NCBI GenBank assembly: GCA_018701175.1
Contig: JABIWF010000014.1
Coordinates: forward strand, 1 to 57,422
Length of the DNA stretch: 57,422 nt
DNA from: Methanobacteriota archaeon
GTDB lineage: Archaea > Thermoplasmatota > Poseidoniia > Poseidoniales > Poseidoniaceae
Direction: 5' to 3'
This document shows positions 21,750 through 36,453 of the stretch, piece after piece. Each line of letters opens with the position of its first letter. Position 1 is the first letter of the stretch. The notes under the pieces were generated by a model. It did no database searches. It was not told where the DNA came from and was given only the letters and a program-made list of their open reading frames with translations. The position numbers and the translations under genes were made by a program.

Positions 21750-22199
21750 TCAAACGATTGAGATGCTACGGGATGCGACATTCAGCAGTACGAGCACACC
21801 GATGATCACCGCAGTCACTCGTAGTGCAGTATGATCGTATTTTTCATCGTACGATTCACGCAGCATAGCATAGCCGATCAACCCTAATCCAAAGGACTGA
21901 AGAATGGTTCCGACTGAACCAATAACTCGATTGAGGTCATTGTGCGCTTCTGTGTCTTCGGCTATTTTTTCAGTAACACCTTCCGCTTCAAGGTCATAAT
22001 CGACGACCGATGGAGGGCCAAACATTTCGACGACTTCGACAAAAACAACAGATGCGAGTATCAGAATGACGCCGAGCATCAACCAGCGGTGGAATGAATA
22101 ACTCAGTGGTGAGGTTTGAAATCCGGCAGCAGGCAAGTACGGCGAGGGAGCAGGAGGGTTTTGAGCAGCGGATGCAGCAGGTGGAGGCGGGGCTTGCAT
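21750..22199 (-). CDS. small membrane protein downstream of arlJ
   Basis: About 149 residues. A Pro/Ala-rich cytoplasmic-looking N-terminus is followed by three hydrophobic segments (WLMLGVILILASVVFVEVVE, VIGSVGTILQSFGLGLIGYA, VTAVIIGVLVLLNVAS) separated by an acidic loop. Unknown family. It lies 39 bases after the arlJ stop on the same strand and may be the last gene of the archaellum transcript. A second in-frame start exists three codons earlier (22208). Confidence 0.6.
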   Translation of the reverse strand: MQAPPPPAASAAQNPPAPSPYLPAAGFQTSPLSYSFHRWLMLGVILILASVVFVEVVEMFGPPSVVDYDLEAEGVTEKIAEDTEAHNDLNRVIGSVGTILQSFGLGLIGYAMLRESYDEKYDHTALRVTAVIIGVLVLLNVASRSISIV

Positions 22200-22238
22200 G
22201 GCAACCAATCACTGACTGGGATTATGATTGTTGGGTCG

Positions 22239-24041
22239 TTAAACGCCAAACACAGCAGATGCGGCTTCCAGTACCAGCGAAGTGATGTATGAAGTGATGC
22301 CTGCAACCCAAAGCAGTTGAATTCCTTGACCCATAGCGGTTGTCCAGATTCCTCCTCGCAACCGATTCGAAATGATTGAGACTGCGATAACTTGGAAGAG
22401 TATGAGAATGGAAACGATAATCTTGAACATTCGAATATTTTCTCCAACTCCTGAAGCATCTTCCATGACTGGAAGGGCCAACCCTGCGCCGAATTCAGCC
22501 AAAGCACCAACATCCGTATCGGTGAAGTTTTCAGCAACACCTGCAATGGAATCGCCGAGCTTGAGGACAATAGCAATGGTTACGTTGAGACTGGTCACCG
22601 AAGCAATAAGCAGACCAAGAGCGACACCACGCATGGTATTGGCAGAGAGAGCCCTTCTTCTTCGTAATGAAAGCAAACTTCCTACTGAGCGGGAAACCAT
22701 CTCAGCGGTGTCTGCTGGCTTCCCTGACGATTGTGAACCTTCGATGTAGATACGTGTGTAGCGAGAGATAACAGCAGAATTGGTATCTGCGTTGAAGTAG
22801 TCCCAAGCTCGATCGGAATCAATACGAGTGGACAGACGCTTTTCCAATCGATCAATAGAACGGTCGAGCATACCAAAGTCAATGCCTCGCAAGGCTTTGA
22901 TGGTGGCTGATGGTTCAGATGAACGAGCCTGAGCCGTACCACCCAAGGCTCGAATAAAGTCGGGATAAGTTTCGTCTCTTCGCAGCACTTGGCGTTCTTC
23001 TCTTCCAATCATAATTGCTGGAATCAGCATGGGTGAAAGAGGGGCGGCAATGAAAATGAGACCGTATCGGTCCCATTGATTGGTAACTGCTTCCCACGAT
23101 GCAGCAAGTAGGATGACCATAATGACGGTTAAGAAACTGGTGAGAATACTGGCACCTGCAAGTGCTCGGAAGAAATTAAGTCGGAACGGTGTATCCATTT
23201 CATCACGAGCAAAAGTTGGATCTTCGGGTACTGTCGCTCTAAACGCAAAGACTGCAGCGACTTGGATAATCGTAAAGACAAGTGATGCCAAAAGAATGAA
23301 TCTCAATCGACTGGCCACCATAATCGGAGTATCGGAATCTGAACCAACTTCGAACAGAACCAGATGGATTCCGGCAATAACGAGCCCGAACAATCCTGCT
23401 GAAACCAAAGAAACGTAGATTTCCTTCATGGTATCTACAGATTCAAGGCGAGTATCGTAGAGAGTCGTGTATTGTTCAGCGACGGTCTCTTGCTCAGAAC
23501 GCATGAACTCATCGATGGCTTGGCCTGCTTCAATGGAAAACGCCATCCTATCGAGGAAATCTGCCCATAGCGGACTAGGGCTTTGTTGTGCCACAATACG
23601 AGATGCCTCTGGGAGAGAAGTGTGCCATTTGTCAACAAGTGTTTCAATTCGTTTGACTTCATTCGCCAATTCACCGTAATCACTCATTTGTTTGAGAATA
23701 TCGAAAATAGATTGAGCACCTACTTCACCGAGCGATAAAATACCCATTCGAGTGATGAACATGTGCATCTCTTTCTCAATCAAGGTTGCAGACCGTTGAA
23801 CATCGAGCAATGGATATGCTGCTGCTGCTGCACCTGCCAGAATGGGCAAAAGGAAAATGAGAAGAATTCCAGCAGCACCAGAAAACAGTGCACCTTCTGC
23901 AAGACCACCGGTGAGGAAAATAAGAAGGAAAGAAAACAAGAATCCGGCAATGGCTGCACCACCGACGTAAAATAAAAGGAATTGACCGACAGGAATCTCA
24001 ACGCGACGAAGGGCGATTTGCCAGTAAGACATTCGCTGCAT
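22239..24041 (-). CDS. arlJ: archaellum membrane platform protein ArlJ/FlaJ
   Basis: A 600-residue polytopic protein of the TadC/GspF/FlaJ class. An N-terminal pair of helices, a cytoplasmic domain (ATLIEKEMHMFITRMGILS, SIFDILKQMSDYG), further helices, a second cytoplasmic domain with YPDFIRALGGTAQARS (a typical second T2SSF segment), and C-terminal helices are visible. ArlJ is the membrane core on which the ATPase ArlI acts during archaellin assembly. GAGGTGA is placed seven bases before ATG 24041. It follows arlI by 11 bases. Confidence 0.88.
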   Translation of the reverse strand: MQRMSYWQIALRRVEIPVGQFLLFYVGGAAIAGFLFSFLLIFLTGGLAEGALFSGAAGILLIFLLPILAGAAAAAYPLLDVQRSATLIEKEMHMFITRMGILSLGEVGAQSIFDILKQMSDYGELANEVKRIETLVDKWHTSLPEASRIVAQQSPSPLWADFLDRMAFSIEAGQAIDEFMRSEQETVAEQYTTLYDTRLESVDTMKEIYVSLVSAGLFGLVIAGIHLVLFEVGSDSDTPIMVASRLRFILLASLVFTIIQVAAVFAFRATVPEDPTFARDEMDTPFRLNFFRALAGASILTSFLTVIMVILLAASWEAVTNQWDRYGLIFIAAPLSPMLIPAIMIGREERQVLRRDETYPDFIRALGGTAQARSSEPSATIKALRGIDFGMLDRSIDRLEKRLSTRIDSDRAWDYFNADTNSAVISRYTRIYIEGSQSSGKPADTAEMVSRSVGSLLSLRRRRALSANTMRGVALGLLIASVTSLNVTIAIVLKLGDSIAGVAENFTDTDVGALAEFGAGLALPVMEDASGVGENIRMFKIIVSILILFQVIAVSIISNRLRGGIWTTAMGQGIQLLWVAGITSYITSLVLEAASAVFGV

Positions 24042-24052
24042 TCGACATCACC

Positions 24053-25774
24053 TCACGTATGGTTTACTCCAGTCCATGTATCTACGGCTTTTTCAAAGTA
24101 TTCCCATCCGTTGTTGTAGTAGATGCCAATCAAGTCGAAGACGTCATCATAATGCGTCAATTCTCGTTCCACCATTCTGTCAAGTGCAGCGGCTCTCTTC
24201 AGCATTTCATCGTAAATGTCACGCTTGTTCGAGAACCCAGCCATTGCTGCAATTTTATTTTCCAGCAGGTGGCTTTGGAACATACCACGGAAATAGTGCT
24301 TATCCTTGACAGGATCCCATTCGAACATTCCACGGGTGAGTACACCATCGCTGTGCTTGTTGTAACCGATAACCTCGTCGATTCCAGTAACACGTCGAGC
24401 AATTCCGCCACCAGGTGCTTCAACAACTTCTTGGAAAATGGCAAAGTTTAGGTTGTCGAAAAAGCGAATTGGAACGTTAATCGGGTCACCAGTAAATCTT
24501 TGAATCATTTTGACAATGGATGAAGCGTGGAATGTTGCAATAACTGGGTGGCCTGTCTGCATAGCCTGGAAAGCAGTTGCGCCTTCAACACCACGAATTT
24601 CACCGATGATGATGTACCGTGGGCGGCTACGTAGAGCTGCCTTGAGCAAATCGAACATTTCGACACGAGATTCCTCGTTCTTCGATGAACGAGTAACGAG
24701 TCGTTGCCAAATCTTGTGTCGCACCTTCACTTCAGGCGTATCTTCTGCAGAGTAAATCTTAACGTTGTGGTCTATGAACGGCAGAATAGCATTGAGTGTA
24801 GTGGTTTTACCGGATGCAGTTTCTCCAGACACAAGTACTGACATACCGTATTCAAGGCAAATCCAAATGTAAGCAGCAACCTGTGAAGATATTGTACCCC
24901 AAGCTATGAGTTGTGTAATCGAGATGGTTTCTTCAGCGAACTTACGGATAGTAAACGACGGACCGAGCATTGAAACGTCGTCAGAGAAAATAATGTTGAT
25001 ACGTGAACCGTCGAGCAGTGCACCATCAATAATCGGTTTGTTGTCTGAAACAGGTCGCCCTATTCTTTCCGACATTGCGCGTAAAAAGCGAGAAAGAAGT
25101 TCTCGATCACGGAACCGAATGTTGGATGTTACCATTCCAAACACTTTGTGATCCATGTGTACGTGCTTCAATCCAATCGAGTGAATATCTTCCAGCATCT
25201 CATCGGAGAGAAGTGGTTCAAGTGGGCCGTTACGGATTAAATCTCGAACGACAATGTAGCGTAGTCGTTCTCGTTGGGCTTCAGTGACAATGAGACGCTT
25301 GTCATCCATACCTAGCATTTCCCAGAAGCGCCCTTGGCGACGTACATTGGTAAGTGCTTCAGTATCGAGGAGCGTGTATCGTTCAATCATCTGAGAGAGA
25401 ATGTTTTCGAATTCGTCATCAGTAGTGAATGAAGGTGCGGTTGGAGCCTCTTGGAGTAGTGTTTCAATTAGACCACGGCGGATGTTTTCCTCTTCTTCGG
25501 AAAGTTGAGGTTCGAGCCCAAACCAAAGAATCTGCCCTCCACCTTCTTCATCTGCCGGAGGTTCGTAAATATGTACAAAAATCGGTTCTTTGGTGATATA
25601 AATGAGATTGTATGGCCGTTCCTTTTTGGCCCCACGGTCTAATGGGCCGTAATAAATTGGGCGTGAACCATGGCTTGATTCAAAGTCACGTACCCATTCA
25701 GCGACGTGAGGATGTGCATTCATGACCCCGTTGAGATCGCCTCGAGCAAACTTGAGTTCTTCATCGACCATCAT
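24053..25774 (-). CDS. arlI: archaellum assembly/rotation ATPase ArlI/FlaI
   Basis: A 573-residue secretion ATPase of the GspE/FlaI family. The Walker A motif GETASGKTTTLNAIL is near residue 317. The Asp box and Walker B region are DHNVKIYSAEDTPE and RPRYIIIGEIRGVEGATAFQAM, and the His box is ATFHASS. The N-terminal domain is present. ArlI powers both filament assembly and rotation, working with ArlH and ArlJ that flank it here. GAGGTG lies directly upstream of the start. Confidence 0.92.
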   Translation of the reverse strand: MMVDEELKFARGDLNGVMNAHPHVAEWVRDFESSHGSRPIYYGPLDRGAKKERPYNLIYITKEPIFVHIYEPPADEEGGGQILWFGLEPQLSEEEENIRRGLIETLLQEAPTAPSFTTDDEFENILSQMIERYTLLDTEALTNVRRQGRFWEMLGMDDKRLIVTEAQRERLRYIVVRDLIRNGPLEPLLSDEMLEDIHSIGLKHVHMDHKVFGMVTSNIRFRDRELLSRFLRAMSERIGRPVSDNKPIIDGALLDGSRINIIFSDDVSMLGPSFTIRKFAEETISITQLIAWGTISSQVAAYIWICLEYGMSVLVSGETASGKTTTLNAILPFIDHNVKIYSAEDTPEVKVRHKIWQRLVTRSSKNEESRVEMFDLLKAALRSRPRYIIIGEIRGVEGATAFQAMQTGHPVIATFHASSIVKMIQRFTGDPINVPIRFFDNLNFAIFQEVVEAPGGGIARRVTGIDEVIGYNKHSDGVLTRGMFEWDPVKDKHYFRGMFQSHLLENKIAAMAGFSNKRDIYDEMLKRAAALDRMVERELTHYDDVFDLIGIYYNNGWEYFEKAVDTWTGVNHT

Positions 25775-25783
25775 AACACCTCA

Positions 25784-26524
25784 TCAGCTAACCGCCGTAA
25801 TATCAACGATGAAGCCCATTCCTGGTTCAACTCGCCATCCAATGGATGTTTGAATCGGACCGGCTGCTCTCAAAAACCGAGTGATGACGATGTTTCGCTT
25901 AATCTCGCCACCAATCATTGCCGTTTGCAAGTCGAGAACGACTTCAGCAGAGGCACGCAATGTGTGCATCAGTTTATGGTCCATTTCTTCAGGATCTATG
26001 CAAAGCATCAACGAACGACCCTTTGAACACACCTGCCGTAGCCGCTGCATGAGTTGGAATCGACTCGTATCGTCAAGATCACTTGGCATAATCGAACTGG
26101 CAGAGTCGATGATAACAACATCTGCGAGCTCTATTGCTTCGGATTGAAGAACTTCTTCAAGTCCGACGTCCGGCAATGATTCAGCAATTGTTCCAAATCG
26201 GCTGAACACCAAGAGGCGTCCTTCTCGAATGGCGTCGGTAACCCCATAGCCAAGAGATTCCATTTGCTCAACCCATCCACGAGTTGTCAGTTCAGTTGTG
26301 ATGACCAGAACTTTGACTCCATTTTCAGCAAGCCCGAAAGCAAGACGTTGAGAAAGAAGTGACTTTCCGCCACCGACAGCACCTTGCAACACATACAGAG
26401 AGCGGTTCGGCATTCGAAGCCCCATCGAGTCTGCAAGAGAGTCGGTTTCCAATTCGTATGGGAAGCCGTCTTCCTTCGGCTTGTGTGCCGCAGTAAAAGG
26501 GTCATCCTTGACATGCTCATCCAT
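25784..26524 (-). CDS. arlH: archaellum ATP-binding regulator ArlH/FlaH
   Basis: A 246-residue RecA-like protein. Walker A is GAVGGGKSLLSQRL near residue 47; Walker B is LADVVIIDSASSIMPSD. ArlH forms a ring under the motor and regulates ArlI through nucleotide binding. ATG 26524 (MDEHVKDDPF) overlaps the end of arlG by eight bases; a longer open frame exists but runs deeper into arlG. Gene order G-H-I-J is the standard archaellum order. Confidence 0.88.
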   Translation of the reverse strand: MDEHVKDDPFTAAHKPKEDGFPYELETDSLADSMGLRMPNRSLYVLQGAVGGGKSLLSQRLAFGLAENGVKVLVITTELTTRGWVEQMESLGYGVTDAIREGRLLVFSRFGTIAESLPDVGLEEVLQSEAIELADVVIIDSASSIMPSDLDDTSRFQLMQRLRQVCSKGRSLMLCIDPEEMDHKLMHTLRASAEVVLDLQTAMIGGEIKRNIVITRFLRAAGPIQTSIGWRVEPGMGFIVDITAVS

Positions 26525-27023
26525 TGATACGCACCTCTTGATTGAAACTCGCACTTGAAGTAAGTCCGGAGACATATTCTGAGGTAACGGTCACGAACAC
26601 ACTGATGTCGGTGTTATCTGCATATGAGTTGAACGTGTTGTTCGATACAGCCACTTCAAGCAAAACATTGGGATTCCAAGCCGTAGGCGTGGGTGTCCCC
26701 AAAAACGAGGTAGAAACGCCAGTAGCGGGTACAGAAAGGCCGTCAATGAGAACTTGCATTTTTGTTTCATCCATTGGATGCTCTCCAGTGTTGAGGATGT
26801 AAAAGGTGATTTCATGGTCCGTTCCAGACCGGTCAATGTTGACGTTCATGGGGTCACCTGCAAAATCAATAGCGACTTCTTCTGAAAGTTGTAAACCTCT
26901 TTGTTGTTTTTGGATAACTTGAGAAGTCGACGACCATTCTTGAATCAAGACTGCACTGGCAGAACTTGAGATCAGCAAGGCGCTGATGAGCATAATGTAT
27001 GTCGAAGCTCCTCCGTCTGCCAT
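26517..27023 (-). CDS. arlG: archaellum stator protein ArlG/FlaG
   Basis: A 168-residue protein with a single N-terminal membrane helix (STYIMLISALLISSSASAVLI) and an extracytoplasmic beta domain with FYILNTGEHPMDE, a common ArlF/G-type strand pattern. In other archaea ArlG forms a filament capped by ArlF and ties the motor to the S-layer. GAGGTG precedes the start. It overlaps arlH by eight bases. Confidence 0.78.
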   Translation of the reverse strand: MADGGASTYIMLISALLISSSASAVLIQEWSSTSQVIQKQQRGLQLSEEVAIDFAGDPMNVNIDRSGTDHEITFYILNTGEHPMDETKMQVLIDGLSVPATGVSTSFLGTPTPTAWNPNVLLEVAVSNNTFNSYADNTDISVFVTVTSEYVSGLTSSASFNQEVRING

Positions 27024-27032
27024 AGTAACACC

Positions 27033-27737
27033 TCAAGATGTTGACCGCACCAAAGTCGTGGGGCCAACTGTCATTGCCAAACGTTCGTATTCGGTATTTG
27101 TACTGAGTTCGTCGTTCCAAAACAACTGCAATGTTTCACCAGAATACCAATTGGTATTGACTCCTGCAAGAACTGATTCTGAAGAGTCTTGTGATTCGGT
27201 AAGTGTCTCTGGCTCTTCGCCGTCATAAAACACCCACACTTCATCACTTTTCAGCGTATCAGAGCCTTGGTTCGTTATGTTCGCATAGATGTATTGATGG
27301 AAGACAGGTGCATCGAAGGTAGCAGGAGTTGTCGGTGTTTGGACCACATTGGACATGTTGTATATTGTCCATGTTGGGGTAGAAGAGCTTGGGCAGAAAC
27401 CGTGGTTGGTGATAACCACGTTTCCTACATCAATCTCGCCACCTGTTGTTGTGAATGTTGCGGAAAATCCGCCGCATTCATCCGAACCAACATTTGCTTT
27501 CAAAATCCCGTCAAAGTATCCCGTTCCTTGGTTGCCTGCAGACATTGACACTTCGTGTATGACATGCTGGGCAATGTCCACATCGTCAATGGTAAAACTT
27601 GGGTCTGGAACTGAGGCGCTTTCGATTGCATCCAAACCGGTTGCAACCTGTGCGTCCAAAGCTGAAATGGCCATTGAAAAGACCACCAGCATTGAGATCC
27701 CAACAATGAGACCTCCAATTCCGACCGAAGCGCCCAT
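27033..27737 (-). CDS. arlF: archaellum stator protein ArlF/FlaF
   Basis: A 234-residue protein. The N-terminal helix GIGGLIVGISMLVVFSMAISAL is followed by an extracellular domain with strands such as GYFDGILKANVGSD and HQYIYANITNQGSDTL. The position just before arlG and the shared topology support ArlF, which caps ArlG and binds the cell surface layer. A GTG at 27749 opens the frame but sits inside the ribosome-binding GAGGTGA, so the ATG at 27737 is chosen; this leaves one base after the preceding gene. Confidence 0.75.
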   Translation of the reverse strand: MGASVGIGGLIVGISMLVVFSMAISALDAQVATGLDAIESASVPDPSFTIDDVDIAQHVIHEVSMSAGNQGTGYFDGILKANVGSDECGGFSATFTTTGGEIDVGNVVITNHGFCPSSSTPTWTIYNMSNVVQTPTTPATFDAPVFHQYIYANITNQGSDTLKSDEVWVFYDGEEPETLTESQDSSESVLAGVNTNWYSGETLQLFWNDELSTNTEYERLAMTVGPTTLVRSTS

Positions 27738-27738
27738 A

Positions 27739-28587
27739 TCAGAGTTCACCTCGAAGCGACTGAACTTGACGCCATGAACTAATCAATGACGAAAAGACCA
27801 GCAATTCCTTGTGCGACAAATGGTCGTCTAACGCTGCTTCTGATTCACCAGGAGATGCCAATTGAACAATAGCAAGGACTGCACGCCCTTCCTGTTCTGA
27901 CAACATACCGGAAGACATTGCTTTCTGAGCAAAACTAACCGCAGCCATTCCCGACATACTGTCAAGAAGTAAGGCTGAAACGGTTGGAGCACCAACTTGG
28001 TTCGCATTCGCTGTCGCACCGGTTGAGGGTGCGTACAAGAATGGATTTGCAGCGAGTGCTTGTGCTTCATACAATTCGACCAGTGGGGCTTCATCAACGC
28101 TCTTGAGACGGTCCATGCCTGCCGCAGAGATGACTTCGCCACTTGCAGTGACGATGGTGTCTCCGCTCATCATGGATTCATCTCCAGCCGGTTCAGACAT
28201 AGCGACTGGATTACCTTCAGCATCCACAGTAGGGGCTGCTTGCGGGGTATCCAACCGAACTTCCACCATCCTCAGAACGTCCTCAACCATGTCAAGGCGA
28301 CTGCTGATGAGACGTTCCAATCCAGAAGTGTCGACGGTTGTGCTCGTTGGAACAGGTGATGAAGGGGCAAGAGTTGCCGCTACTGTTGGAACACTTCCAA
28401 CGCTGTTCATACGAGCTCGTGTCGGACTTGGACTGATTGTCCATGCATCGTCTTCGCTGAGTTCTCCTTCTTCGGGAAGCGGGACTTGTTCAATGGCGAT
28501 GTTCGCCATAATTTTCAGTCGTTCCTCCGTAAGGTCTGCATCTGCATCTCTGTTTTTATCTGCGTTACCGCTAAATGGCCATGCCAT
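27739..28587 (-). CDS. unrecognised archaellum-operon protein at the arlC/D/E position
   Basis: A 282-residue soluble protein. The N-terminal third is acidic and Pro/Ser/Thr-rich. A short amphipathic helix (GLERLISSRLDMVEDVLRMVEVRL) around residue 95 could form a coiled coil like the small FlaC helix. The C-terminal 100 residues are helical (VSALLLDSMSGMAAVSFAQK, SEQEGRAVLAIVQLASP, ELLVFSSLISSW). I do not see the FlaD/E domain signature. Its position between archaellins and arlF is where arlC/D/E lie in other euryarchaea, so a role in the cytosolic motor ring or chemotaxis coupling is inferred. GGGAGGA is six bases before ATG 28587. Confidence 0.65.
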   Translation of the reverse strand: MAWPFSGNADKNRDADADLTEERLKIMANIAIEQVPLPEEGELSEDDAWTISPSPTRARMNSVGSVPTVAATLAPSSPVPTSTTVDTSGLERLISSRLDMVEDVLRMVEVRLDTPQAAPTVDAEGNPVAMSEPAGDESMMSGDTIVTASGEVISAAGMDRLKSVDEAPLVELYEAQALAANPFLYAPSTGATANANQVGAPTVSALLLDSMSGMAAVSFAQKAMSSGMLSEQEGRAVLAIVQLASPGESEAALDDHLSHKELLVFSSLISSWRQVQSLRGEL

Positions 28588-28642
28588 GATAAATCCTCCC
28601 AAGGGCTGTAACGCCTTTCGGCATTGGTGCCCTTAGATGCAA

Positions 28643-29299
28643 TCAGATGACGAGTGACCCAGCATCTGTGCTTCCGATGTCCAAGGTTTGGAAGGTTGTA
28701 CCGCCGCTACCGACGTGAATGTAAAGTTGAACCTTCGAATCTCCACCTGCAGCACTGCAATCAACAGCGTTTGCGTTGTCGTTAGCATCGATCCACATGA
28801 CGTATCCAGTGCCTGGGTTCATGATTCCAGTCGCAGCATCTTCGGCATTTGCATCTGGCTCATCTTCGTCCATTTCAGCAACAGCACCTGCTGCTTGGAA
28901 AGCAGCTCCAGCACCGTCAGGGTCTCCAATGAATCCTTCAACAACACCATCGTCACAGAAGAACTGGAACGAAATTTCGTCCAGTGGTGCAGGTTCGCTA
29001 CCAGGAGCGAGACGGACGTGGAACATGTATGCTTCAGTACTTGTGAAAGCATTACCAACGTCGTTTCCTGCACCGCCGTTAGCGACAAAGCCAGCTGAAA
29101 TGAGGACCTTACCTGCCATGTTGTCGGCAGTGTCATCACCAGTGGTTTGAGCATTTTGTTGAAGTTTTTCAGCAGTTTGAATGATGACTGCTGCAGCGAC
29201 TGCAGCAACCAAAATCAAAGCAATAAAGACAATCATTGCACCGATACCGATAGCAGCGATTTTGTCTTCTTGAATATCGTTACGAGTATTTGACTTCAT
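28643..29299 (-). CDS. arlB: archaellin (archaellum filament protein), copy 1
   Basis: A 218-residue archaellin. A short hydrophilic leader ends at AAIG and is followed by IGAMIVFIALILVAAVAAAV, the class III signal peptide layout cut by PibD/ArlK just before the hydrophobic helix. The helix and following EKLQQNAQTTG are nearly identical to copy 2. The outer domain is acidic and Gly/Ala-rich, with two Cys (SFQFFCDDG and AVDCSAAG). Its ATG overlaps the copy 2 stop (ATGA). Confidence 0.9.
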   Translation of the reverse strand: MKSNTRNDIQEDKIAAIGIGAMIVFIALILVAAVAAAVIIQTAEKLQQNAQTTGDDTADNMAGKVLISAGFVANGGAGNDVGNAFTSTEAYMFHVRLAPGSEPAPLDEISFQFFCDDGVVEGFIGDPDGAGAAFQAAGAVAEMDEDEPDANAEDAATGIMNPGTGYVMWIDANDNANAVDCSAAGGDSKVQLYIHVGSGGTTFQTLDIGSTDAGSLVI

Positions 29300-29835
29300 A
29301 TGACTTTCGCCCCCGGTTGAACATCAGCACCATAATTCAAGGTCTCATACGTGAAACCTCCAGCGCCAGATTGGATAATCAATGTGTGGTCTGCGTTCTC
29401 AAAAGGAGCACAGTCATCAAGTGATGCAGTTGGAAGTGTAATGTCGTACGTCGAGCCTGGAACCAAAGTGGCACTCAAAGTATCCACTCCAACGAGGCTT
29501 GAAGACGTAAAGTCTCCAGCATCTACACCAGCAGTACAGACAATGTTCCAGTCAATGTTTGCTGGGTTGATTGCATCTGATCCTGGAGCCAGTTCGTAGG
29601 TAATGTACAATTCACCGACAGTAGGAATCATGACATTCTTGATGACCACTTTCGAGGACAGCAAGGAAGTCGTTTCTTCACCGGTTGTTTGTGCATTCTG
29701 TTGCAACTTTTCAGCAGTTTGAATAATAACTGCTGCTGCAACCGCTGCAACCAGAATCAATGCAATGAATACAATCATTGCACCGATACCAATAGCAGCG
29801 ATATTATCGCTTTTTTCGTTCGTATTTTCTTTCAT
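29296..29835 (-). CDS. arlB: archaellin (archaellum filament protein), copy 2
   Basis: A 179-residue archaellin, shorter than copy 1. The N-terminal leader, AAIG cleavage region and hydrophobic helix match copy 1, then the outer domain diverges. Two Cys are again present (NIVCTAG and LDDCAPF). ATG 29835 has GGTGA six bases upstream; another ATG four codons earlier (29847) overlaps this ribosome-binding site and is less likely. A 42-base A/T-rich gap separates it from the upstream 351-residue gene, and may hold an internal promoter. Confidence 0.9.
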   Translation of the reverse strand: MKENTNEKSDNIAAIGIGAMIVFIALILVAAVAAAVIIQTAEKLQQNAQTTGEETTSLLSSKVVIKNVMIPTVGELYITYELAPGSDAINPANIDWNIVCTAGVDAGDFTSSSLVGVDTLSATLVPGSTYDITLPTASLDDCAPFENADHTLIIQSGAGGFTYETLNYGADVQPGAKVI

Positions 29836-29889
29836 ATTTTTCACCATTTTTTAATTTTTATCCCCCATGTAGGGTGGAAAAGGATTGAG

Positions 29890-30945
29890 TTAAGAAGAAC
29901 CTCCAGAACTCATTGTGATGCGAAGTGGGATACGAATGATTGCCACTTCGTCGGGAGCGAGGCGTTCCACAAATGGAACTGCGTCAGCGGTGTAGCCTGG
30001 CGGGAACCAAGGCGAGAGAAGGATATCAGCAAGGGGCTCCATCGAGCGGTTTTGCGCACGTATGGTGACAAAAACTTCGCCAGTACGGATTTCATAACCT
30101 GTCGTAATCGCCAGTTTACGCGACAACGGTATTTCGTCTGCACCGTAACGGCGGTTGGCAGACACATTGAATCGAACTGGCAAGTTTCCTCCAGGAGCAA
30201 TTGTAGGCAGGTCAACCGATGAAGGCGTAGAAACCCAGCCTTCTGGCACCGGTGGAGAGAGGCGCATTGGCGGCATTGCCACGGGGCCATCGTTGATGAT
30301 ACGGACGACCAAGACACCTTCGTCGCCTCCAGCAGGCCATCGTGTTTCAAGGCCCATCCAGAAATGTCGGAATAAGAATGGGTTAAGGGTCGATGTGTTT
30401 CCACCGATTAAATCGTCTACAAGGTATTCAACTTCACCAGCAGCGCCACCCACATCTCCGATTTCTGCTGCACTTGTTGCGCTTCTCAATCGAAGGAGAA
30501 TAGTTTCAATATCGTTCTCGCTGATTTTCTTTTCATTAAGTAAACGGTGGAGCATAGCGATGTTTCTGCGTAAATACAGCACGTCTTCTTCCAAAACAGC
30601 AAGCGATGACTCAGCTTTGTCGACACTTGACAGAGCACGTCGTAGCTTGTGCGTTTGCAAGAAACTCTTTGCTTCACTGATTTCAAGTTCAGTACCGGCA
30701 AGCGAATTTGTATCGTCCTGAGCGATTCCGAGAACCATCGTCTCTAAATCCCTTGGAAGCGGTCGTTCTGGACTCGATGTCGAAGGCATTGGTGGGAACG
30801 GAGGTATCTCCTCGCCAACGTCCGCTTGCACGTCAACAGGAGCGGTATTCGAGGATTGACCGGTGACTTCATCCTCGAACTGAGGCATTTCATCAAGGGT
30901 TTTTTCCTCAACTGAGGGGTCGATGAGTTCTTCATCAGGCATCAT
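29890..30945 (-). CDS. coiled-coil plus beta-domain protein in the archaellum operon
   Basis: A 351-residue protein without signal peptide or membrane helix. Residues 1-70 are acidic and Pro-rich. Residues 80-180 are strongly helical and probably coiled coil (EAKSFLQTHKLRRALSSVDK, AVLEEDVLYLRRNIAMLHRL). Residues 200-345 look like a beta-sandwich: VLVVRIINDGPVAMPPMRLS, NLPVRFNVSANRRYG, GEVFVTIRAQNRS resemble CARDB/NEW3-type 'additional' beta domains. Not a known arl protein to me. GGAGGTGA lies just upstream, and the start overlaps the giant gene's stop by 11 bases, so the two are tightly coupled. Confidence 0.65.
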   Translation of the reverse strand: MMPDEELIDPSVEEKTLDEMPQFEDEVTGQSSNTAPVDVQADVGEEIPPFPPMPSTSSPERPLPRDLETMVLGIAQDDTNSLAGTELEISEAKSFLQTHKLRRALSSVDKAESSLAVLEEDVLYLRRNIAMLHRLLNEKKISENDIETILLRLRSATSAAEIGDVGGAAGEVEYLVDDLIGGNTSTLNPFLFRHFWMGLETRWPAGGDEGVLVVRIINDGPVAMPPMRLSPPVPEGWVSTPSSVDLPTIAPGGNLPVRFNVSANRRYGADEIPLSRKLAITTGYEIRTGEVFVTIRAQNRSMEPLADILLSPWFPPGYTADAVPFVERLAPDEVAIIRIPLRITMSSGGSS

Positions 30946-33900
30946 CGTTCACCTCCTCGTTTGAAAATAAGTTCTCTGGATTCAAGGCTTGTGAGGCTTC
31001 AGCAGAACCGAAGATATCCTCGAGGTTGAGTCCATCTCCTGCGAGTTCATTGAACAACCGAGCTGGGTCGCTCAAGTCACGTTCGATTCGAATGGCCTTC
31101 ACTTCGATGTCCGTGAGACGTCCGTAAAGAGCGCCGTACATGTTGTTTGCACGGTTAATCAAGAACCAAACACCTGCCATGACCACGATGACATAGGCTG
31201 CTATACTGACGACATTCGTCCGATCCTCGGTGAGCATTGGAGGAATACCCAGAATGATAGCAAGCATACCAAGTACCGGCATGCCAAGGATTGTGCGGAG
31301 TTGGCGACGGCTGCTGACAAGTTCTTCGAAATGGTCTGCATACAGTGTCGAAATACCTCGGCGAGCGCGTTGATAGTCTTCGTGGAGAAGCCGGAATTCG
31401 TCGGTGCTCTTCCACGTCATTCTCCAAATCCATAACGCAGCCAGTGTGAGGACAACAAAGCCCCACCAAGCGAATTGGAATACGTGGAAAGAGAAACCGA
31501 AACCAACAACACCAGCATAGATTGCTAAGAGTCGGAAATTATCGTTTTGAGAGGTTAAGCGGAAGAGGATAATCGAAACGAGTAAGCATGTAACTGCTGC
31601 TACGAAGCTGGCTGAAACACCTGGCGACCATGAAATGACGTCTTCCTTCAAGGTCTTTTTATCGTTCAAAACAACGTTGTTTTCCATGAATGAAGCGTCG
31701 AGTGACGCTACACATGATGCTTCAGAGCGCTGGGTCCACCAATCGATAGAATCGGCTGTGACCACCCACGTGAGAGTTCGTTCTTGGGTAGCGAAGAAGA
31801 ACGGTATCATTGAGTAATTGAGTCCTGAATTGACTGACCGATTTAGCATGGTTGGAGTTTCTGAAGGCAAGGTAGAGACGGTGAGGCCCTCGCATTGCAG
31901 GTCAACGACCACATCAAGAGCCGTAGCGGAGCCAACGTTTTGTACAACGACTGTAATCGTGCTTTGAGTGCCTTCTTGGAATTGACCTTCGTCCGAAGAG
32001 ATACTCTTGATCATTGGATCGGCAAATACTGCCAAAACAAGCGAGAATGTTTCCTCGTCATACACCGAGTAGCCGTTGTTTTCATCGGGGTGGTAGAGTC
32101 TAAACGTCAAATCCCAACCGTCACCGGGAAGAATAAATCCTTTCGTAGGCGTCTCCGCTTGAATTCGAATGGTGGAAGGATTCCATGCTTCAAGCTCTAC
32201 CAAATTATATCTCGAAGTCGGGCCAAGTGAAGTCGGGCCACATTCTTGATCGAGGTTTAGAGGATGGGAATCGGAAGTTCCGTCAAATTTGTCGACATAG
32301 AGCGTGAAGTTCCAAGAATACTCGAACTCGGAAAGGCCCATCGATTCGAGATTCAACAGACGTTCAGAGTTACAAAGTTCAATCATGTAGGCCACTTCAC
32401 TGCCGTTCCCAGTTGGGATATTTGTGTACGGGAGGAAAACATCGACAAAGTCGCTGTTAATGTCAGGTTCAATACCAATATCGCCCGTCGAAAAGAAGCG
32501 AGACATAACCAGTTGTGTTGTGAATTGACCGCTGCCTTCCACTTCTGTTTCAGTAGGGTCAAGGAACAGTGTCAAATCTGCAGTCAGTGAAAGAAGCGGC
32601 AGGTCGACGGCTCCGACGGCAGTGAACGAGTGGACAACGGGCGTGTTGATTGGAAGAACAATCAAAGACGGTTGAGTCACCATTTCCCAATCGGTTGAGA
32701 GATTTGAGAGGCCGGGTCGAGTTATTGCATATACGGCATTGACGGTGACATCCTTGTTTCCTGTGTTCAAGAGCGTGACTTCCCAAGTGCGAGTGGATTT
32801 GGGTTGGAACTCCATAACATCAGGCCAATCCGAAGATTCAACGATGAAAAGTGGCTGTATCAACAATTGAACTGTGTGCGTACTGTAGACAATGCCAGTC
32901 GTCGAATTAACGGCCGTAATGGTAAGATTGTAAACTGAACCCTGAACAAGCGTATCGGTTCCGCCAAGGCTTGGGATAGCAACATTTACGCTGTCAGAAT
33001 AGGTTTGGTCAATGGAGAGAACTTCCGTGAGTTCCGTCATCGAGAGTGTAATATTGCCTTCAACGGCCAAAGTGACCTTGACTGTTTCCTGGAGGTTGCC
33101 GTAATTGATGATGTCAAAATCGACTTGTTCCATTTGACCAGGAGTTACTGCCATCTGGTCAGGTGCGGTGATTCCAATCGAATGGTTTTCAGTGATGTTG
33201 GCAACTACGTTTGAGGAAAGGAGGATTTGACCGTTGTTGGTCGATACCCATACAGTGGTCATGTAGAAACCGTCGGAGTCTGCATTATCGTTCGCATTCA
33301 TCTCTATTCGGATTGTTTCTTCATATCCTGCTGCGATAAAGAGACTCGAAGATGTCGGAGATTCGATGTTGAAATCGACATCGCCGGCCAGAGAATTATC
33401 CAACCAAATCTCGTAATCTGCAGGCGCATTGCCAGTGTTTTTGACAACAATAGAAGTAAAGGTCGAATCTGTGACGTCGAGTTCAAGTGACTGATTTGTT
33501 GGTGTGAGGCTGCCGTTGAAAATCTGCCCTACAACCACAAAGAACACGTGTTCGCTGCCAATCAGTTGACCTGAGATTGGATCTTCAATTCGTACCGTGA
33601 TAGGTTGATTTAATCCAGCAGGTGCGAGAGGGTCGGTTCGAATATTAAACGTCACAACTTGGATGTGTGCAGCGTTACCTGAGGAGCCATCGAGCGTACC
33701 GTCTGCAATGTCAGCAGTCAAATTGGAAATATTTTGGTCGTTTTCAGAGAAGTTCGCAGTCCAGTTTTTAGGGAGATTATCTACGATTCGCAAGCGATAT
33801 GAACCCACATCGTTACCAGTGTTAGCAAAACGCATTGGAATTGAATTATCGACTCCAACCGGTACATCGTATGGACCTGAGTCAAGGAAATCGCCATCGA

Positions 33901-35920
33901 TGACCTGCGGAATGATAAGTGTGTAATTCCGAGTAAGAGGGACTGCATTCACGCCACTACCAACCAATGCTGCGCTGAGTGTAGGCGTGATGGTCAATGA
34001 AGCGGCAAAAGTGCCAGCAACCGGATATTGATTCGCTTGCGGACCGATAATGTCCAAAGTGGTGTTCATACTGTCGCCGGGCAGGAGGCCGGAATAGAGC
34101 GGGTTTGAAACGGAAACCGACCAACGGTCAGCCTCTCCAAAGCCACCTTCATTAAACGCCGTGAAGGTCTTTGAAGTCGTGAGTGTAGCATCCAAGGTCT
34201 CAGTGAGTAATGTTGGAAGGTTGTGAATCACACGCAGATTCAAATCGATGTTTTTAACAAGTTGAGAGCCGGTGAGTGTTTGCTCAATTTCTTCGACTGA
34301 GACGTGTTGCGGTTCAGTATCCAGGCCGGGGTCAACAACGATTACGGGTGATACTTTGATCGGAGCAGTATCTTGCGAAGGTACACCCCCACCAATAGGT
34401 TGGCATTGAATCCAGACATCGAGTTCATCGCCAGCCATGTTGTACTCGCTGGTAACGATTGGGTTTTGGATTGCAGGAGCGGTAAGCGTCACAACGACTT
34501 GAGTTGTAGCGCCGGATGCAACTGGAGGTGTGATGGAAGGGCTGACCTCCCAAGTCCAGTTGAGTGTTGCGACCGATAACCCAGTCGTCAATGTGTAGGT
34601 CGTTGTGACACTTCCAGTGTTTTCGATTTGAGCGATGTATTGAGCTTGGCCACCCGGATTGATGGTTTTGATTGTAGAATCTTCGACCAGAGTGACTTCG
34701 CCTTTGAAGAAATCACCAACCATCACACGGCCTACGCCCGAAATTTGGTAATTGTCTGGAGAGTTAACAGAGGTGAACGTAATGGTAATTTTGTCCGTTT
34801 CCGAACGAACTGCGTTCGCTGGAACGTTGACATCGAGGGTAACGAGGCGAATGGATCCCGCAGGAAGCGTGGCGCCAAAAGAAGCGGAAGTAACATCAGC
34901 CCATGGCTTGTTTTGTGTAACTGAAATTGTGAAGAGGTCGGTTTCGACACCGGTGTTTTTGACAACGAATGTGATTGCAGTCGTGTCCCCCGGTTCGACA
35001 ACAAGTGTCGCAGGTTCAATGACGATTGCATTATAATCGGAAAATTTCACCCATGATTCGCGAACGACAACGGTTTCAGTCCAAGATGTACCATCGAACT
35101 TTACCGTTGCGGAGATATTCCAAACGCCAGTGAGCGTGGTGCCGTCGACATCAGCGCTTAGAATACCAGATTCCTGAAGAGTCCCTGATGAGGGAGGGTA
35201 TGATCCTGGTTGGAGTGTAACTGTGCCCGAAGTGAAGGTGATCACAGTGGGAGTCGGTGTCGAGTTGTCGGTAAGGACAATCGTCATTGTAGCAGAGATT
35301 GGCTTGACTCCAGAATTGGTAACCGATGTGTTGAGCGTTGAAATGGCGTTGGGCAGTGCCATTCTGTTGGTAGTGGGTGAGTCAGCAGGGAATGTATTCC
35401 CCATTGTTTCTCCAAGGTGCTTATTCTCGACAGAGAAAGCAAATCCAACATCTTGGATGTTGTTAAGGAGATCGTTTCCTGTCTCCTTTGTTGAGACCAA
35501 TTTAATTCGAAGTTCTTGCCCAGCACCGTTCGTTGCAGTCCATGAAAATGATATCGGCGTGAGGTCAACTTGCCCTGATGCACCGCTCACGCTGCCCATT
35601 GCGATGCTATCGACATCTGTGAACCCAAGGGATGGAGAGCCTTTGTGCTGCAAGACCAACCAAAGATCATCGTTACCAGAGCCAACTGCTGAAATGTTTG
35701 CAGTGACGACGTGTTCACCAGGTTCAAGGAAAAGGCTCGAACCAATCACAGCGGAACCAGAATTGCTGAGATGCAATGGGTTTCGGAAGTAAAAGTCAAG
35801 TGTTGCACGTCCGGATGTGCTCGATGAGTTGCTGGAATCCTCTGCATTGGCGAATGGCAAGTACATTGGCAACACAAACAGTGCCACAAGCAATGCTGCC
35901 AACAAGGATTGACGGCTCAC
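30935..35920 (-). CDS. giant membrane protein with beta-rich ectodomain, archaellum operon
   Basis: About 1,661 residues. A signal peptide (SRQSLLAALLVALFVLPMYL, cleavage after ANA) leads to roughly 1,350 extracellular residues made of repeated beta-sandwich units. Recurrent motifs are VKNTG, NTGN and VVxNxG followed by 'Y-I', e.g. TFVVKNTGVETDLFTI, IVVKNTGNAPADYEIW, VVVQNVGSATALDVVV: CARDB/NEW3-like repeats. The last 330 residues hold about five membrane helices with a cytoplasmic helical loop (EFRLLHEDYQRARRGISTLY) between the third and fourth, and an acidic tail. The start is uncertain: GTG 35920 or GTG 35941, near GGAGGTGA. The open frame to 36286 overlaps the upstream gene and is rejected. 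Confidence 0.75.
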   Translation of the reverse strand: MSRQSLLAALLVALFVLPMYLPFANAEDSSNSSSTSGRATLDFYFRNPLHLSNSGSAVIGSSLFLEPGEHVVTANISAVGSGNDDLWLVLQHKGSPSLGFTDVDSIAMGSVSGASGQVDLTPISFSWTATNGAGQELRIKLVSTKETGNDLLNNIQDVGFAFSVENKHLGETMGNTFPADSPTTNRMALPNAISTLNTSVTNSGVKPISATMTIVLTDNSTPTPTVITFTSGTVTLQPGSYPPSSGTLQESGILSADVDGTTLTGVWNISATVKFDGTSWTETVVVRESWVKFSDYNAIVIEPATLVVEPGDTTAITFVVKNTGVETDLFTISVTQNKPWADVTSASFGATLPAGSIRLVTLDVNVPANAVRSETDKITITFTSVNSPDNYQISGVGRVMVGDFFKGEVTLVEDSTIKTINPGGQAQYIAQIENTGSVTTTYTLTTGLSVATLNWTWEVSPSITPPVASGATTQVVVTLTAPAIQNPIVTSEYNMAGDELDVWIQCQPIGGGVPSQDTAPIKVSPVIVVDPGLDTEPQHVSVEEIEQTLTGSQLVKNIDLNLRVIHNLPTLLTETLDATLTTSKTFTAFNEGGFGEADRWSVSVSNPLYSGLLPGDSMNTTLDIIGPQANQYPVAGTFAASLTITPTLSAALVGSGVNAVPLTRNYTLIIPQVIDGDFLDSGPYDVPVGVDNSIPMRFANTGNDVGSYRLRIVDNLPKNWTANFSENDQNISNLTADIADGTLDGSSGNAAHIQVVTFNIRTDPLAPAGLNQPITVRIEDPISGQLIGSEHVFFVVVGQIFNGSLTPTNQSLELDVTDSTFTSIVVKNTGNAPADYEIWLDNSLAGDVDFNIESPTSSSLFIAAGYEETIRIEMNANDNADSDGFYMTTVWVSTNNGQILLSSNVVANITENHSIGITAPDQMAVTPGQMEQVDFDIINYGNLQETVKVTLAVEGNITLSMTELTEVLSIDQTYSDSVNVAIPSLGGTDTLVQGSVYNLTITAVNSTTGIVYSTHTVQLLIQPLFIVESSDWPDVMEFQPKSTRTWEVTLLNTGNKDVTVNAVYAITRPGLSNLSTDWEMVTQPSLIVLPINTPVVHSFTAVGAVDLPLLSLTADLTLFLDPTETEVEGSGQFTTQLVMSRFFSTGDIGIEPDINSDFVDVFLPYTNIPTGNGSEVAYMIELCNSERLLNLESMGLSEFEYSWNFTLYVDKFDGTSDSHPLNLDQECGPTSLGPTSRYNLVELEAWNPSTIRIQAETPTKGFILPGDGWDLTFRLYHPDENNGYSVYDEETFSLVLAVFADPMIKSISSDEGQFQEGTQSTITVVVQNVGSATALDVVVDLQCEGLTVSTLPSETPTMLNRSVNSGLNYSMIPFFFATQERTLTWVVTADSIDWWTQRSEASCVASLDASFMENNVVLNDKKTLKEDVISWSPGVSASFVAAVTCLLVSIILFRLTSQNDNFRLLAIYAGVVGFGFSFHVFQFAWWGFVVLTLAALWIWRMTWKSTDEFRLLHEDYQRARRGISTLYADHFEELVSSRRQLRTILGMPVLGMLAIILGIPPMLTEDRTNVVSIAAYVIVVMAGVWFLINRANNMYGALYGRLTDIEVKAIRIERDLSDPARLFNELAGDGLNLEDIFGSAEASQALNPENLFSNEEVNDDA

Positions 35921-35924
35921 AGAA

Positions 35925-36356
35925 TCACGCAGAAGATTCACCTCCTGGTGAATCGAAACGAGCAATGGTGACCTTCTTACCTTGGCGACGCCACTGCATG
36001 AGAAGCTGCTCAAGAAGGCGTTCGTGTTCGATGTCTGAGATGCCAAGCCGGCGGCGTTCTTCCCAGAGGAGCATTTGTTCCGTCTTCGTAAGAAGAGCGT
36101 CTCGGAGATACAATTCCAGCGTACGACGATATGCATCACGGTCAGAAACAGCGTAAACAATAGTGTCTCCGGGGAGTTGGTCCGCTCGGTTTTGAATGAG
36201 GTTGCCGAGGGTGAGGGCTTCGTCGTAGGTGATGTCCCGCTTGTCCAAGTCTGTTTGAACTGCGCTTGCAATGGTTTGTAAATCAAATCGAGTGTTGGTA
36301 CGCTGTATTCGTTTGGAATAACGGCGGCTTCTACGAGACAATCGGACCGCCACCAT
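35925..36356 (-). CDS. small basic helical protein, first gene of the archaellum operon
   Basis: A 143-residue soluble protein starting MVAVRLSRRSRRYSKRIQR and continuing in charged helices (QTIASAVQTDLDKRDITYDE, RRTLELYLRDALLTKTEQML, EHERLLEQLLMQWRRQGKK). Unknown family. AAGGAG is five bases before ATG 36356; the frame extends to an ATG at 36428, but the TATA-like element at 36443-36453 would place initiation downstream of it. The basic N-terminus could bind nucleic acid or membrane; this is inference. It overlaps or abuts the giant gene. Confidence 0.6.
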   Translation of the reverse strand: MVAVRLSRRSRRYSKRIQRTNTRFDLQTIASAVQTDLDKRDITYDEALTLGNLIQNRADQLPGDTIVYAVSDRDAYRRTLELYLRDALLTKTEQMLLWEERRRLGISDIEHERLLEQLLMQWRRQGKKVTIARFDSPGGESSA

Positions 36357-36442
36357 GGAACTCCTTGTTACCTGCCGGTTATTGAAAGAATCGGTCACTA
36401 CACCCCCATCAACCCGAAGTGGTGTCATTCCTACCCATTTCG

Positions 36443-36453
36443 CATAAAAGGCT
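36443..36453. promoter_or_regulatory. TATA-like element between archaellum operon and peroxiredoxin
   Basis: GCATAAAAGGC on plus, GCCTTTTATGC on minus. It lies 87 bases upstream of the first archaellum-operon ATG (36356) and about 100 bases upstream of the peroxiredoxin ATG (36555). It is the only good A/T element in the divergent gap. By-eye call. Confidence 0.45.

Follow-up and report, generated by a model that had tools for sequence, protein, structure and literature searches.

Archaellum (arl/fla) operons of the described arlFG type with ArlCDE carry the archaellins, a gene in the ArlCDE slot and ArlF to ArlJ in one run. An accessory module upstream of arl genes, possibly envelope-anchoring, is also known, and its proteins have LysM and PilO domains. 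How the archaellum is held in an envelope without a surface layer (S-layer) is stated to be open in the accessible text of two recent papers (PMC12448462, PMC13319060). Here, we analysed a window of 57,422 nucleotides (contig JABIWF010000014.1, assembly GCA_018701175.1) from a Poseidoniaceae archaeon of the order Poseidoniales (hereafter the order), whose genome is about 1.9 Mb. In the window, the archaellum operon is extended by an accessory module, whose core is two proteins designated GIANT and CC351, accompanied by the order-specific protein bas143. Compared with the known operon, these three genes are added upstream, the ArlCDE gene has diverged below Pfam thresholds, and none of the 145 genomes of the order gave a CheW match. 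In its domains the module is unrelated to the LysM/PilO type; it consists of a membrane protein with immunoglobulin-like (Ig-like) repeats and a helical/Ig-like protein. GIANT and CC351 keep together as a pair immediately before the archaellin gene and, as far as the contigs allow, are present and absent together with the arl genes across the order. It is very probable that they belong to the archaellum there.

The operon is very probably the one in Tully 2019 (PMC6336850), where the legend to Fig. 4 describes a Marine Group II (MGII) motility operon with orthologous unannotated proteins; conserved unannotated proteins are found in both. The available text of that paper states no identity, structure, role or wider distribution for them, and the literature surveyed, taken without supplements and subscription papers, contained no account of the GIANT-CC351 module. 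The presence of unannotated conserved genes in the operon has thus been published before, and their identity, anatomy and wider spread appear to be new. Nearly half of the archaellum operon of these apparently abundant surface-ocean archaea codes for proteins of the right build for envelope anchoring, and GIANT, CC351 and bas143 are now identified for follow-up by tomography, complex prediction and expression work.

Linkage of the module to archaellum genes in the order

We searched the 145 genomes for CC351, ArlJ, the GIANT C-terminus and bas143. A match of E<1e-30, a cut that we chose ourselves, was taken as a true ArlJ; the labels f, g, G and L denote families, genera, genomes and loci of this analysis. 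CC351 was present in 86 genomes, GIANT in 87, true ArlJ in 86 and bas143 (strong matches) in 76. CC351 and true ArlJ occurred together in 80 genomes and were both missing from 53, with six genomes carrying only CC351 and six only ArlJ; the genomes are related, so these counts are not independent events. GIANT and CC351 were adjacent and on the same strand in 85 of 86 cases. CC351 and ArlJ shared contig and strand in 53 of the 80 genomes with both, with ArlJ 4,897–6,381 bases downstream. In the remaining 27, the contig breaks off in the direction of arl, either short of or within arlJ or already within CC351 (13 and 14 cases, by separate inspections).

All 12 mismatches between CC351 and ArlJ were inspected and lie at contig ends. 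The 6/145 genomes that could have carried the module without arl genes (G007, G015, G035, G055, G061 and G081) were rejected as such, all being cut by the contig end inside the arl run (L129–L131, L133–L135). The converse, arl genes without the module, was rejected on the same ground: its 6/145 candidates (G005, G027, G045, G115, G137 and G138) have contigs that stop within the arl run or at its edge (L035–L037, L053, L125–L128). Among them, G137 has GIANT, and G027 and G138 have bas143, each on another contig; no full module gene was found in the arl-positive G005, G045 and G115, which remain candidates, their contigs ending too early to tell. G013, counted as having neither gene, gave no module match; on one contig of 4.1 kb (L142) it holds arlF to arlI with a fragment of arlJ.

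By genus, true ArlJ was found in 14 of 21 and CC351 in 12 of 21. The two genera that differ, g6 and g7, are each represented by a single genome, in which the contig breaks off within the arl run. Neither GIANT nor CC351 is present in the seven genera that have no true ArlJ. True ArlJ occurs in 10/10 genera of f1 and 4/11 genera of f2, which fits the distribution given in the accessible text of Rinke et al. (PMC6461757), with the operon in all Poseidoniaceae genera and half of the Thalassarchaeaceae genera. bas143 has no match in the f2 genera g13 and g20, where GIANT is the first gene. At one locus of genus g14, a 1,082-amino-acid (aa) frame with no Pfam match lies between bas143 and GIANT (L042:5079-8327).

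Build and wider spread of the module

GIANT is predicted from modelling to be exported, to pass through the membrane with about five helices and to end in the cytosol. It has about ten Ig-like domains, and the C-terminal membrane helices number five in the model and four by hydropathy scan. Pfam recognises an Ig-like NPCBM_assoc repeat in it (E 8e-8). The seven other f1 GIANTs compared each gave one continuous, nearly full-length match. CC351 is predicted to be a cytosolic scaffold protein, with an NPCBM_assoc match (7.6e-5) that falls below the Pfam cut-off. Neither protein has an NCBIfam match over cut-off. The ArlF and ArlG models gave no match for the GIANT and CC351 of the window (Pfam, NCBIfam) or for 31 CC351 homologues (NCBIfam).

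No Pfam match of note and no NCBIfam match over cut-off was obtained for bas143. Its residues of about 73–124 resemble a short module (about 50 residues) of zinc-ribbon proteins elsewhere in the phylum; full-length bas143 was found in none of the genomes outside the order, and only this module recurs there. A cysteine-pair (zinc-ribbon-like) protein of the window's own genome shares the same helical module (L104:1298-2407), with similar matches across the phylum.

ArlI over cut-off was detected in 124 of 292 genomes of the phylum. A first CC351 profile (A1) gave three weak matches outside the order. Profile A7, with rows of f11 and f25 added, found CC351 relatives in 72 genomes, 48 in the order and 24 outside (16 of the 24 at E<1e-15); its rows from G177, G189 and G176 match by construction, as does the G177 row in the GIANT profile A6. 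The matches in these 24 genomes rule out an order-only origin of CC351. In f11, CC351 is directly upstream of arlB in all six genomes; GIANT is its neighbour in five of them, truncated at the contig start in L110, and lies beyond the contig in L084. In f28, CC351 is upstream of arlB in both genomes. In the place of GIANT, L113 has a 1,492-aa protein with Ig domains, a signal segment and, at the C-terminus, five membrane segments, and L114 has three shorter frames, none of these with a GIANT profile match. In f26, the GIANT-CC351 pair lies at a contig end (L115). One f11 genome (G153) has ArlI over cut-off and no CC351 match, and G171 has GIANT, CC351, archaellin and ArlCDE followed by a weak arlF/G-like gene, with no ArlI over cut-off. 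At L112 and L124, both of G171, the arl run ends at this weak gene beside a frame of >6,600 aa.

The initial annotation had taken the three upstream genes as a possible lineage-specific stator, anchor or sheath system, a view that their occurring only alongside archaellum genes would support. A stator, anchor or sheath is still a reasonable guess. Lineage specificity stands for bas143, which is confined to the order, and fails for the GIANT-CC351 pair, which also occurs in f11 and, with GIANT recognised by anatomy, in f28. Nor do the three travel as a unit, given that bas143 is missing from g13 and g20 and the pair goes further. The restriction to genomes with arl genes holds for GIANT and CC351 in the order, as far as the assemblies allow.

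Possible role of the GIANT-CC351 pair

We consider the chances about even that GIANT and CC351 are a transmembrane scaffold that anchors the archaellum motor in the envelope; their link to the archaellum is well supported, and the anchoring we infer. A more specific proposal, which we hold tentatively and somewhat short of an even chance, is that the pair is an undescribed anchor, a membrane-spanning Ig-repeat collar that is tied to the cytosolic motor platform, is passed on together with the archaellum in several families of Thermoplasmatota and supports the stator without S-layer contact. CC351 would grip two partners in the cytosol, the end of GIANT and the platform of ArlCDE, ArlH and ArlI. 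The Ig-like ectodomains of GIANT, several per motor, would stand as a collar or palisade on the outer side of the membrane and hold ArlF/ArlG, so that the motor would not spin idly where a suitable S-layer contact is absent. bas143 would be an order-specific cytosolic add-on.

Several observations weigh against this anchor. The strongest counter-argument is that most arl loci inspected outside the order are without the pair, taken together with an S-layer-free swimmer that has an ordinary operon. We compared 20 arl loci fetched from other families of the phylum. The module lies upstream of arlB in two (both f11), the contig shows too little in three (L087, L092 and L096), and the remaining 15 are without a GIANT-CC351 pair there (at L088, no archaellin was recognised). 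Because of these 15 loci, the archaellum does not generally need GIANT-CC351. The swimmer is a Thermoplasmatales species without an S-layer, described in the accessible text of PMC12448462; the want of an S-layer is therefore not enough by itself to require the module. When the GIANT of the window was used as a single-sequence query, it found the GIANTs of f1 and f2 only. The order-only profile of the GIANT C-terminus scored the f11 GIANT at 3e-3, and a profile with one f11 row reached f8 (3e-7) and f26 (2e-5) and missed f28. The GIANT of the window has no significant excess of glycosylation sites (19 vs 15.1±3.2). The fold matches, among them that of the helical domain of CC351 to EzrA, score within the range of unrelated proteins. 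Finally, the pair occurs in two genomes of f8, away from arl in G150 and on a contig too short to judge in G169 (L119), and a CC351-like gene stands alone, away from arl, in f7, f22 and f25.

These last cases would suit a mere neighbourhood: a pair of envelope genes placed in the operon and under its promoter, with no part in the organelle. G116 could be read in the same way, having bas143 but no ArlJ, CC351 or GIANT match, on a contig of 3,213 bases (L137) that ends too early to tell. We regard this explanation as highly improbable. Absence of arl genes was shown for none of the genomes of the order that have CC351 or GIANT; the six with CC351 and no true ArlJ contain other arl genes as far as their contigs reach, and the same linkage is seen again in f11 and f28.

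Ig repeats would fit an adhesin equally well, and those of GIANT are of the NPCBM_assoc/CARDB type. GIANT could be a long adhesin that binds particles or cells; it would be expressed along with archaella since the organelle serves attachment, and CC351 would be its cytosolic partner. The CheW search, with a match in none of the 145 genomes, is consistent with this, and Rinke et al., in the accessible text, favour adhesion over motility (PMC6461757). We think an adhesin unlikely, if still a serious contender: a fixed cytosolic partner, several membrane helices and a site directly upstream of arlB in separate lineages exceed what an adhesin needs, and the full-length conservation seen in 7/7 f1 GIANTs is high for one.

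The resemblance of CC351 to EzrA, a division-ring scaffold, bears on another explanation, in which the module serves to position or assemble the archaellum, as the polar cap does in other euryarchaea, and is not a stator anchor. The long acidic N-terminus of CC351, probably disordered, and the small, basic bas143 without a membrane segment would agree with such a role. The sequence score of CC351 is far below cut-off for the EzrA cytoplasmic domain (16.6 bits vs 754), and the EzrA model reached E<=1e-3 in 2 of 31 CC351 homologues. EzrA is not known to have Ig domains. Positioning also leaves the large ectodomain unexplained, and we consider it improbable.

Archaellum genes, operon layout and P0004

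Judged from its genes alone, the downstream part of the run is an archaellum operon. Archaellin and ArlF, G, H, I and J stand together in canonical order; only ArlI is over its NCBIfam cut-off, and the rest match more weakly. Table 1 lists the features of the operon.

Table 1. Positions of the operon genes and putative expression signals in the window
Feature	Position	Strand	Remarks
TATA-like TTTTATG, operon head	36443..36449	-	TTTATGC-type; position kept in 12 aligned f1 upstream regions, including the window
24-base 5' leader element CCGATTCTTTCAATAACCGGCAGG	36371..36394	-	upstream of bas143
bas143	35925..36356	-	basic, 143 aa, no membrane segment found; strong matches in the order only
GIANT	30935..35941	-	1,668 aa; signal segment, Ig-like ectodomain, C-terminal membrane helices, cytosolic end (predicted); GTG start likeliest
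CC351	29890..30945	-	351 aa, predicted cytosolic; N-terminus acidic and disordered, followed by a helical bundle and a pair of Ig-like domains
Short stem TTCCACCC..GGGGG	29861..29878	-	5' of archaellin gene 1; varied loops, recurs in 15 aligned junctions
Archaellin 1 (ArlB)	29296..29847	-	named from its likeness to archaellin genes of relatives; start may be 29835
Archaellin 2 (ArlB)	28643..29299	-	Pfam Arch_flagellin 1.4e-19
P0004	27739..28587	-	282 aa; probable diverged ArlCDE fusion; slot, motif, weak profile matches
ArlF	27033..27749	-	NCBIfam ArlF 1.6e-5, below cut-off; position
ArlG	26517..27023	-	NCBIfam ArlG 2.4e-16, below cut-off; Pfam Arch_flagellin 3.4e-13
ArlH	25784..26575	-	NCBIfam ArlH 4e-53, below cut-off
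ArlI motor ATPase	24053..25774	-	NCBIfam NF058587 671.8 bits, 7e-202, over cut-off
ArlJ membrane platform	22239..24041	-	NCBIfam NF004704 7.7e-117, below cut-off

The 11 genes are packed at 36356–22239 on the minus strand in the order bas143, GIANT, CC351, archaellin 1, archaellin 2, P0004, ArlF, ArlG, ArlH, ArlI, ArlJ, and the junctions range from -59 to +55 bases. The successive values are -17 (bas143/GIANT), -11 (GIANT/CC351), +42 (CC351/archaellin 1), -4 (archaellin 1/archaellin 2), +55 (archaellin 2/P0004), -11 (P0004/ArlF), +9 (ArlF/ArlG), -59 (ArlG/ArlH), +9 (ArlH/ArlI) and +11 (ArlI/ArlJ). Since the same gene order recurs across the order, the arrangement is beyond chance. The initial annotation had the coordinates, strand and gene order right, and Pfam, NCBIfam and the relatives agree with its two archaellins and canonical ArlF to ArlJ. 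The tight coupling with an 11-base overlap that it described is found at the GIANT/CC351 junction, with no gap above 55 bases anywhere, and the TATA-like element that it placed at the operon head was recovered. Its figure of about 40% of the coding length unexplained was too low, as bas143, GIANT and CC351 take up 6,495 of 14,118 bases (46%). Of the strong ribosome-binding sites that it claimed, the one of CC351 stands, with the Shine-Dalgarno-like AGGAGGTGA 5' of the gene; that of GIANT abuts the GTG start, which makes this start uncertain.

The leader element occurs once in its own genome at <=3 mismatches, and its core is kept in 12 f1 upstream regions, in which the full 24 bases are not identical. 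It could be an operator or a translation element of the archaellum operon. The folding energy of the stem before archaellin 1 is no better than that of shuffled sequences; the stem may set the archaellin mRNA level. The TATA-like element, the leader core and the stem would fit a main promoter at the operon head, with an extra promoter before archaellin 1 possible. Directly after ArlJ, a 152-aa protein with hydrophobic stretches is encoded at 21750–22208 (minus strand), with homologues in 2 of 20 loci of the order compared (L047 and L049).

P0004, overlooked in the earlier reading, is from sequence comparison most likely a diverged ArlCDE. It has no Pfam or NCBIfam match of note, and FlaC_arch and Arch_fla_DE were not found over threshold. 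Among the genes of other families in the slot between archaellin and ArlF (seven scanned with Pfam), six have FlaC_arch and four of these also Arch_fla_DE, with neither at L086. P0004 occupies the same slot as the FlaC_arch genes and has the motif L..LY(E/D)....NPF in common with the slot genes of other families. An order-wide P0004 profile weakly matches the slot gene of two other families (L097, 1e-3; L100, 8e-4). FlaC_arch was seen in 3 of 15 P0004 homologues at E<=0.1 (best 0.0057), and the hhalign comparison of profiles A3 and A5 (P0004/ArlCDE) gave an E of 0.0028 with a probability of only 10.9.

The CheW search gave a match in 0/145 genomes of the order, and its positive control gave a signal in 7 of 14. 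This agrees with the accessible text of earlier papers, in which MGII (PMC6461757, PMC6864105) and Thermoplasmatota (PMC9680633) are reported without chemotaxis genes. The order, in which the CheW search found nothing, has an archaellum operon with a diverged ArlCDE, and the loss of a chemotaxis partner may explain the divergence of P0004. In the other families, three archaellum operons carry two tandem ArlI genes each (L090, L094 and L099, of f32, f34 and f16); that of L090 contains, in addition, a series of six consecutive archaellin genes.

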